Positions 4,210-6,126 of a stretch of 64,000 nt of DNA are shown one piece after another. The position numbers were made by a program, and so were the translations under genes. The stretch comes from Candidatus Moanabacter tarae (lineage in GTDB: Bacteria > Verrucomicrobiota > Verrucomicrobiia > Opitutales > UBA2987): contig CP029803.1 of assembly GCA_003226295.1 (NCBI GenBank), forward strand, positions 2,361,001 to 2,425,000, written 5' to 3'. Within the stretch, counting starts at the first letter, position 1. The number at the start of each line of letters is the position of its first letter. The notes beneath the pieces are model-generated. The model saw only the letters and a program-made list of their open reading frames with translations, was not told where the DNA came from and made no database searches.

Positions 4210-4341
4210 CGGAATGCGCAGCGAGCATGTCGCGTAGAGGGACAATAGCAATCGAAAGCGAACTTTTTCCTAGTCTCATTCCCCCAGATGAACGTTGAAG
4301 ATTGCAAAGTTGATTCCCTCAATTCAGAAATTCTAGAAGCG

Positions 4342-6126
4342 ATGCCTGAGATTCGAATATTATCGGATCGAGTAGCGAATCAGATTGCGGCTGGGGAAGT
4401 GGTCGAGCGGCCTGTAGCTGTAGTCAAAGAGCTGGTGGAAAACAGTCTTGATGCCGGTGCCACACGGGTTGAGATTGAGTTTCGTGCCGGCGGGAAGAGC
4501 TATATTCGAGTAGAAGACAACGGGGGTGGCATGAGTCCGGACGAAAGTTTGCTTGCATTGGAAAGACATGCCACCAGCAAAATCCGAGAAGCTAGCGATC
4601 TGTTAGCAATCGGCACTTTCGGATTTCGCGGAGAGGCCCTTCCCTCAATCGCAGGCGTCTCACGGTTTTCGATAAGAACACGAAAAGCGGGATGGGATCA
4701 CGGAACAGAGATTCTTATCAACGGCGGTAGATTTATCCACCGTAAGGATTGTGGTATGCCGGTTGGAACTCGAATTGAGGTTGCGAATCTTTTCAATTCG
4801 GTTCCGGCTCGAAGGAAATTCCTCAAGACGGATAATACAGAAGCTGGGCATATCGTTCATATTGCCCGACTCTATGCTGTAGCACATCCGGAGATAGCCT
4901 TCACTCTTCTGGAAAATGACAAGAAGATTTTTCAATCTCCTGTCACCGAGGATTTCGAAGTTCGTGTGGCAGAGGTTTTTGGACGACAGTTGGCAGACAA
5001 CCTGATTGATCTTCGCGTTGAAACGGATGGATTTTGCCTGCGAGGATTAATTGGAAAACCCGGGGTGGGGCGATCCACTCGCCAGGAACTTATTACCTTT
5101 GTAAATCAACGCTTGGTCAACAGTCGAACGCTTAATCTCGCACTGATTGAAGCTTACCACACCTTTATTCCCAAGGGGCGTTATCCCATAACTTTTCTTT
5201 TTCTCGACATGGATCCCAGTACTGTCGATGTGAATGTGCATCCGGCCAAGAAAGAGGTTCGATTTCGCGAGGAGGGACGGATCCGCCAGTTCGTCATAGG
5301 CGAGGTATTATCACGGCTTCGGGAAATTGCCGGTAGAGGTTCGGAAACGGCCATTAGTTCAGAAGAACGTATCCTTCCCAGAGATTCCCTTCGACCCATA
5401 AACCCTGATTCTCAGGCGGTTTCATCACTAGACGACACTACGCTCCCTGTAATTGGCACTGACGAACCTCCCCGATTAGATAAAGAAATTCAAGCATCTT
5501 CATTGGAAACAGCAGTGTCCAGCAAGACTGACGGTGTCCCTTCCTCGTCTCCTTGGAGATACTTAGGATTGGCTCATGGTGTTTGCGCTATTTACGAGAC
5601 GGATGCGGGCATCGTAATCCTCAATTACAGGGCAGCAATTGAGCGAATTCGTTTCGAGGAGATTTTCGAGGGACTTAGAGATAAGGAGATCATGAAACAG
5701 CAACTACTTTTTCCTGCACATTTGGAGCTGGATTCAGTTCTCGCTGCAACTCTGGAAGAGAATCTTTCATTTTTTGCCGATGCTGGATTCAATATCGAAC
5801 CTTTTGGTAGAAACTTTTATCGAGTCGAGGCCCTGCCTGATTGGCTTAAACCGTCGGAGGCAGAGGATCTCCTGCGGGACCTGTTGGGCTTGATTCAAGA
5901 AAGAGGCCTCAATCCAGTCAATCGTGAGTTTCTACATGAAGAGTTAGCCCGGCGGGCCTCATTTTTGCCCGTTAAGGTTGATCCGAAACCTTCTCGAGAG
6001 GAGATAGAGGCCCTTCCCGTTCGGCTTCTTGTCTGTCAAAATCCCTTGACCGATACCAGTGGCAACCCCACTTTCTTGGAACTCTCTCGAGCTGATCTAG
6101 AGAGAAGGTTAAAGGGTGCTTTCTGA
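4342..6126 (+). CDS. mutL: DNA mismatch repair protein MutL (endonuclease motif lost)
   Basis: A 594-residue MutL. The GHKL ATPase half is complete: NQIAAGEVVERP, ENSLDAGAT, DNGGGM, ATSKI and GFRGEAL, followed by the transducer domain with VNVHPAKKEVRF. A low-complexity linker (about residues 335-400) leads to the C-terminal dimerisation domain. There the usual DQHAxxERxxxE endonuclease motif reads NYRAAIERIRFE (from base 5623), and the terminal CPHGRP zinc/motif block reads CQNPLTDTSGNPT. The nicking activity found in MutL of most bacteria without MutH is therefore probably lost. I chose the ATG at 4342 (MPEIRILSDRVANQI), the classic family start; an in-frame ATG at 4288 is also possible. 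It appears to be transcribed alone. Confidence 0.93.
   Translation: MPEIRILSDRVANQIAAGEVVERPVAVVKELVENSLDAGATRVEIEFRAGGKSYIRVEDNGGGMSPDESLLALERHATSKIREASDLLAIGTFGFRGEALPSIAGVSRFSIRTRKAGWDHGTEILINGGRFIHRKDCGMPVGTRIEVANLFNSVPARRKFLKTDNTEAGHIVHIARLYAVAHPEIAFTLLENDKKIFQSPVTEDFEVRVAEVFGRQLADNLIDLRVETDGFCLRGLIGKPGVGRSTRQELITFVNQRLVNSRTLNLALIEAYHTFIPKGRYPITFLFLDMDPSTVDVNVHPAKKEVRFREEGRIRQFVIGEVLSRLREIAGRGSETAISSEERILPRDSLRPINPDSQAVSSLDDTTLPVIGTDEPPRLDKEIQASSLETAVSSKTDGVPSSSPWRYLGLAHGVCAIYETDAGIVILNYRAAIERIRFEEIFEGLRDKEIMKQQLLFPAHLELDSVLAATLEENLSFFADAGFNIEPFGRNFYRVEALPDWLKPSEAEDLLRDLLGLIQERGLNPVNREFLHEELARRASFLPVKVDPKPSREEIEALPVRLLVCQNPLTDTSGNPTFLELSRADLERRLKGAF

Follow-up and report, generated by a model that had tools for sequence, protein, structure and literature searches.

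A MutL without its nuclease site in Candidatus Moanabacter tarae and its order, probably retained as a matchmaker

The mutL locus and its nuclease motifs

The window, that is the whole stretch of 64,000 nucleotides analysed here, belongs to Candidatus Moanabacter tarae (class Verrucomicrobiia, order Opitutales; 'the class' and 'the order' below). It lies on a single contig of 2.63 Mb, which is 98.2% complete and holds one MutL copy. The mutL reading frame is intact, and an upstream start at 4288 is possible (Table 1). In Pfam the protein matches the MutL domains (MutL_C with E 3.3e-22) and it scores above the cut-off of the NCBIfam family TIGR00585 (mutl). Both marks of MutL membership, the GHKL ATPase motifs of the N-terminal half and the MutL_C domain, are present.

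Table 1. Features of the mutL locus (positions within the window)
Feature	Position	Strand	Description
mutL	4342..6126	+	594 aa; open reading frame with Pfam and NCBIfam matches
ATPase half	4438..5265	+	four motifs, all intact
ENSLDAGA	4438-4461	+	ATPase motif, intact
DNGGGM	4516-4533	+	ATPase motif, intact
GFRGEAL	4621-4641	+	ATPase motif, intact
NVHPAKKEVRF	5233-5265	+	ATPase motif, intact
C-terminal dimerisation domain	5536..6123	+	AlphaFold2 pLDDT 93.8; fold most similar to B. subtilis MutL-CTD
NYRAAIERIRFE	5623..5658	+	at the place of DQHAxxExxxxE; catalytic D to N, zinc-ligand H to R, both E kept
QQLLFP	5698..5715	+	putative sliding-clamp-binding motif; matches Qxh(L/I)xP
ASF	5956..5964	+	at the place of ACR; Cys lost
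CQNPLTDTSGNPT	6034-6072	+	terminal block; contains DTSGNP
DTSGNP	6052..6069	+	CPHGRP expected here; its Cys, His and Arg are gone

The endonuclease activity of PMS2-like MutL proteins is tied to three motifs, DQHA(X)2E(X)4E, ACR and CPHGRP, and the window MutL carries none of them in working form. According to PMC10366529, these motifs bind two catalytic metal ions, and the Arg of CPHGRP is called catalytic; the roles given in Table 1 to the Asp and His of DQHA follow PMC10366529 and PMC2965676. In the window DQHAxxE reads NYRAAIE. The same exchange of Asp for Asn at the first position abolished nicking by B. subtilis MutL (PMC2965676), and Caulobacter MutL with this exchange supported no mismatch repair at all (PMC8034640). 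For the terminal motif the available accounts are mixed. In T. thermophilus MutL a change of the Cys left nicking in place (PMC2744016), and A. aeolicus MutL R406A is described as still nicking in PMC2744016 and as severely impaired in PMC10366529. Loss of the CPHGRP His abolished nicking by A. aeolicus MutL (PMC2744016). Once purified, the window MutL would presumably not nick DNA.

The original prediction, made from the letters alone, held that the DQHA and CPHGRP motifs are lost while the ATPase motifs are perfect, and that the organism is a probable verrucomicrobium. All of this stands: the residues quoted are exact (NYRAAIERIRFE and CQNPLTDTSGNPT), the four ATPase motifs read intact, and the nearest named relatives are mostly Opitutae/Opitutaceae records. 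The loss of ACR is an addition to that account, which omitted this motif.

We also considered a second MutL as nuclease partner, which is ruled out in this genome by one MutL and one MutL_C match. Homopolymer runs of at least 7 number 15 in the window, and a first-order simulation gives 26 of them (range 17-38); as a mutator signature this count says nothing, since coding sequence may shun such runs anyway.

Loss of the site and retention of the domain

The nuclease site is broken in 77 of the 77 genomes of the order with a readable MutL C-terminus, including the present one (76 are tabulated, with G316 taken by eye from its second frame, and G298 was added by eye). Since this holds throughout, the loss is neither chance nor an assembly fault, and the clade-wide loss for which the original prediction proposed an alignment of Verrucomicrobia MutLs extends to every order member read. 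In all, 80 order genomes were searched; G294, G301 and G304 (50-82% complete) gave no MutL_C match. Among the order genomes searched with the MutL_C profile, all but about 15, only G299 has two MutL_C matches, and the motif is gone in both (L132, and L356 by eye). In G316 a frameshift within the linker divides MutL (L357) in two, so that either the assembly is wrong there or the gene is broken.

Full residue counts were made for 75 order sequences. L159 (frame-split N-terminus) and L113 (partial) took no part in the residue counts. The DQHA His is kept in 1/75 and the CPHGRP His in 3/75, and no sequence keeps both (0/75). The Cys of ACR remains in 5/75, vs 100/100 canonical relatives. D428, which the window MutL has lost, is found in 36/75 order sequences and in 99/100 canonical ones, and E434 in 46/75. 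Near the old site, E439 (72/75) and E580 (70/75) are almost always retained. In these comparisons a sequence was labelled 'lost' by its DQHA His, its E434 and the Cys/Ser and His of CPHGRP, so that canonical sequences are canonical there by construction; the ACR Cys took no part in the definition.

The DQHA His is most often replaced by Arg (55/75). Arg or Lys occupies this position in 26 of the 32 rows from other class families labelled as motif-less, one of the 32 being a truncated canonical sequence (L216). Across 132 motif-less sequences, which are related and not independent, E434 is kept in 81/99 of those with Arg or Lys at the DQHA His vs 20/33 of those without. Because retention of E434 goes with the basic residue, the pattern suggests that a positive charge has replaced the metal at the site.

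Despite the lost motifs, the C-terminal domain (CTD) is far from eroded. The clamp-binding consensus which QQLLFP matches is that of PMC8034640. In motif-less MutLs its first Gln is present in 133/133 and the full Q..L.P in 111/133, beside 91/100 for Q..L.P in canonical MutLs. Among the 25 closest pairs listed, CTD dN/dS lies between 0.063 and 0.222 in 21, and dS is saturated in the other 4. The AlphaFold2 model, built from 79 order CTDs of which some were assigned to the order by title or tree, reaches pTM 0.87. Its best fold matches in the PDB are 3kdg, 3kdk and 3gab chains of B. subtilis MutL-CTD (TM 0.74-0.79), followed by N. gonorrhoeae, with E. coli lower (TM 0.72-0.73). The CTD profile ranks likewise (E 2.3e-34 vs 3gab, E 2e-8 vs E. 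coli 1x9z). With its fold and clamp motif kept and purifying selection still at work, the MutL protein is not decaying. Relative to the N-terminal domain (NTD), the CTD diverges faster where the site is gone: the median CTD/NTD ratio is 1.69 in 395 order pairs and 1.69 in 153 other motif-less pairs, vs 1.21 in 788 canonical pairs. This is as expected after loss of an active site. Three sequences cut by contig ends and mislabelled as lost (L084, L106, L216) were excluded from the clamp-motif and divergence counts and from the counting of changes below.

Outside the order, 77 MutLs fetched from class genomes comprise 45 with the full site, 31 without it and 1 cut by a contig end, in a non-random sample for which low scorers were fetched on purpose. 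By family, 30 were read: 21 are canonical, 8 lack the site (f8, f11, f14, f16, f93, f96, f101 and f105) and 1 is cut (f15). In f8 the site is absent from 18/18 sequences read. Named Verrucomicrobiales records are canonical in 33/35 cases, the remaining two being L106, which is cut, and L107, which is without the site. In named Kiritimatiellales records the DQHA His departs in 3/3, and CPHGRP is intact in one. Family f93 (L264, L266) reads DQRAAHER and CPRGRP; both zinc-ligand His are exchanged for Arg, and the DQ, Glu and CP/GRP residues are kept. This state possibly represents an early stage of loss. Four genomes that belong to motif-less class families, G036 and G057 (0.9 Mb each), G387 and G395, gave no MutL_C match, and G036 and G057 are also without MutL in another MutL search.

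A tree built on the N-terminal half puts the order in one clade (SH-aLRT 99), f8 with L107 in a second (100) and f11/f14/f16/f101 in a third (100). The fewest changes on this tree are 6 after removal of truncated rows. A fixed number of independent losses was nevertheless dropped: the tree needs at least 6 changes, yet a topology that unites the three largest motif-less groups passes the AU test (p 0.327), and we therefore make no claim on the number of independent losses.

MutS and the search for a source of the nick

The genome encodes one intact MutS, which shows a single MutS_V match, five Pfam MutS domains, the mismatch-reading FxE (GDFYE) and a C-terminal QLDLF; with domains I-V and FxE it reads as a MutS1. 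No MutS2 was seen in this genome, given the single MutS_V match. Among 52 relatives (a set which, like that of 150 class genomes used below, includes the present genome), all 46 near-complete genomes have both MutL_C and MutS_V. The MutS C-termini read mostly end, by eye, in clamp-like QLxLF or similar.

The original prediction asked for a search of the genome for MutH and reasoned that another nicking source would be needed unless strands are told apart in some other way. MutH (PF02976) gave no match in the genome by profile search and no first-look candidate; because of this, a nick source besides MutL and MutH would indeed be needed, provided that mismatch repair runs there. The NucS C-terminal nuclease domain (PF01939) and a D12/Dam-type methylase (PF02086) likewise found no match in this genome by profile. 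A methyl-directed MutHLS system is represented only by its MutL without nuclease motif, MutH and Dam being absent from the matches. In the relatives, MutH matches occur in 2/52 genomes (1 over the cut-off) and in 6/150 class genomes, partial-length NucS matches over the cut-off in 2/52, and a D12 methylase match in 14/52.

The MutH-family matches from lineages without the MutL motif (L111, L112, L280 and L284) have an N6/N4 or D12 methylase within the same 3-kb locus and for this reason are read as restriction-modification genes. The L112 protein has no Pfam match at E 0.001, and G196, the genome of L280, probably belongs to these lineages, as its MutL_C score (86 bits) falls within the low-scoring group. 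A MutH hidden as a distant homologue was rejected on these grounds, the profile search being negative in the present genome and the hits from motif-less lineages sitting beside methylases. Three further MutH-family open frames of 227-231 aa (L281, L282, L283), with no methylase seen by eye in their 3-kb loci, come from genomes with a canonical MutL (G364, G398 and G392, with L228, L239 and L219, respectively). Another match, L285 in G365, was left unassigned.

Smr is present in the genome as a stand-alone reading frame (G000:C1:2348689-2348916, 107 aa open frame), some 12 kb to the left of the window. Such stand-alone Smr matches occur in 29/52 genomes (28 over the cut-off) and in 27/46 near-complete ones, which rules it out as an order-wide replacement nickase; for the present species it is still possible.

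RNase HII is of interest as a maker of nicks at ribonucleotides. Two genes of this family lie in tandem outside the window (G000:C1:579664-581072, L295), one of which, from its longer frame and signature, we read as HIII-like. The tandem pairing is also seen in other order genomes, and the family match in order RNase HII is more extended than that in the remaining class genomes listed, as if by an insertion. The family is found in 48/52 relatives and 149/150 class genomes. As a marker of the loss it is ruled out, being present in the class whatever the MutL. Two near-complete order genomes, G295 (93%) and G306 (97%), have MutS and MutL and no RNase HII-family match, so RNase HII is not needed everywhere. 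A clamp-like C-terminal motif was counted in 13/31 tails from the order (1.8 expected from shuffling) and 15/28 from the rest of the class (1.4 expected), a lead only, since the regular expression was written after viewing the first 20 loci, one gene was counted twice (L294 and L315) and L322 and L324 carry no RNase HII signature. The tails (L294-L354) read QLEFY in the present species and QMNLF, QLALPL and others elsewhere; the motif appears in 28/59 verrucomicrobial tails and is absent from E. coli RNase HII.

No conserved nuclease adjoining mutL or mutS was seen by eye among families present in at least 3 loci (16 mutS and 11 order-type mutL loci), in a clustering that is a weak test where many frames are wrong-frame calls in GC-rich loci. 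Among MutH, NucS, Smr and RNase HII, none was confined to motif-less genomes and at the same time general in them, and none of MutH, NucS and Smr occurs throughout the 52 relatives searched.

Possible starts of repair

The order MutL shares features with several known systems. Like the E. coli type, it combines the MutL_C fold and an intact ATPase half with the absence of DQHA, ACR and CPHGRP (L193), and has a clamp-type QxxLxP (QPLLIP in E. coli). However, E. coli depends on MutH, for which, as for a Dam-type methylase, the present genome has no match. The order CTD profile is nearer to B. subtilis 3gab than to E. coli 1x9z, and the motif helix, reported to be 8 residues shorter in E. coli (PMC2965676), is long in the order model (residues 31-48). 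With the endonucleases of B. subtilis, N. gonorrhoeae and A. aeolicus it shares the CTD fold and the clamp motif, but not most of the zinc ligands and catalytic residues. Eukaryotic subunits such as MLH1 and human PMS1 also lack the nuclease motif; in contrast to the single MutL gene found here, MLH1 partners the nuclease-bearing PMS2 and MLH3 (PMC2965676).

Judged from sequences and the predicted fold, the three nuclease motifs are gone from every order member read, whereas MutS, the MutL fold and the ATPase and clamp motifs are still there. MutL is very probably a dead nuclease kept as a matchmaker, and mismatch repair probably still runs in the order. As the best overall explanation, at a probability of about 0.5, we propose a clamp-bound ATPase matchmaker which supports excision from strand ends of an origin other than MutL. 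A dimeric, clamp-bound MutL ATPase, its own nuclease absent, would link MutS to the excision machinery. Excision could start at ends of the new strand which are already there, namely Okazaki ends, the growing 3′ end and RNase HII incisions at ribonucleotides, and the oriented clamp would tell MutL which strand is new. For Pseudomonas, PMC8744996 mentions a proposal in which Okazaki ends or nicks by RNase HII could distinguish the strands. Entry at such pre-existing ends is our tentative choice, held at somewhat less than even odds.

Nearly as likely is entry at a cut in the new strand made by a dedicated MutH analogue, as yet unnamed and called by MutL. Working repair with a nuclease-dead MutL is well studied in E. 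coli, which has MutH (PMC8034640 and PMC8744996), and selection on a CTD that has lost its catalytic site is what a docking platform would experience. On the other hand, MutH and NucS match nothing in the genome, Smr is patchy among the relatives and the neighbourhoods of mutL and mutS, a weak test as noted, reveal no conserved nuclease; a nickase of an undescribed family would, however, have escaped these searches. We regard it as unlikely that classical mismatch correction is gone and that MutS and MutL serve another task, such as blocking recombination between diverged sequences. The four genomes of motif-less families without a MutL_C match look as if MutL had low selective value there, and the raised CTD/NTD ratio points the same way; yet MutL_C and MutS_V are retained by all 46 near-complete relatives, as are the clamp motif of MutL and, mostly, the clamp-like MutS tails.

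Least probable of all is a relocated or residual metal site through which the CTD would still nick DNA. The retained E439, E580 and E434 and, in order members other than the present one, D428 speak for it, and the conflicting reports on the need for the CPHGRP Cys and Arg (PMC2744016, PMC10366529) would leave room for it. Against it, conservation in the alignment of 79 sequences stays below 90% for every Asp, His and Cys of the CTD, canonical MutLs have E439 just as often and E580 is variable in other motif-less class lineages; moreover, loss of the CPHGRP His was enough to abolish A. aeolicus nicking, as cited above. AlphaFold itself does not place metals in a model.

Our preferred reading, excision from ends not made by MutL, bears on a general rule. 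According to a review, MutL homologues without the motif are confined to some MutH-bearing gammaproteobacteria (PMC3848065). The motifs are described as conserved in all MutL endonucleases and not in MutLs without activity (PMC10366529), and in most other organisms the cutting activity is said to reside in MutL (PMC8034640). A whole order read without the MutL nuclease site, in a genome of which MutH is not found, would depart from the rule as given in PMC3848065. In titles and abstract beginnings, with subscription papers outside the scope, we found no report of motif loss in Verrucomicrobia, Opitut- or Akkermansia MutL and none in literature on motif distribution; Putnam's survey, cited in PMC8744996, may touch on that distribution.

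PMC3848065 and PMC8034640 treat as open how the new strand is recognized where Dam and MutH are missing. Because the MutL site is lost and no MutH match was found in the genome, mismatch repair, if it runs in the order, must start by a route not yet described. We consider it rather probable that this order and other verrucomicrobial lineages practise MutS-MutL repair without a nick by MutL or MutH. This would be a third way for bacteria to discriminate strands, and it would use either clamp-presented nascent ends with RNase HII as a helper or an unnamed nickase family. Where MutL cuts DNA itself, the contribution of pre-existing ends is difficult to single out, and in this order the MutL nick looks absent. 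Such a lineage would offer a natural test, against sister families which keep the site, of whether strand ends and an oriented clamp suffice.
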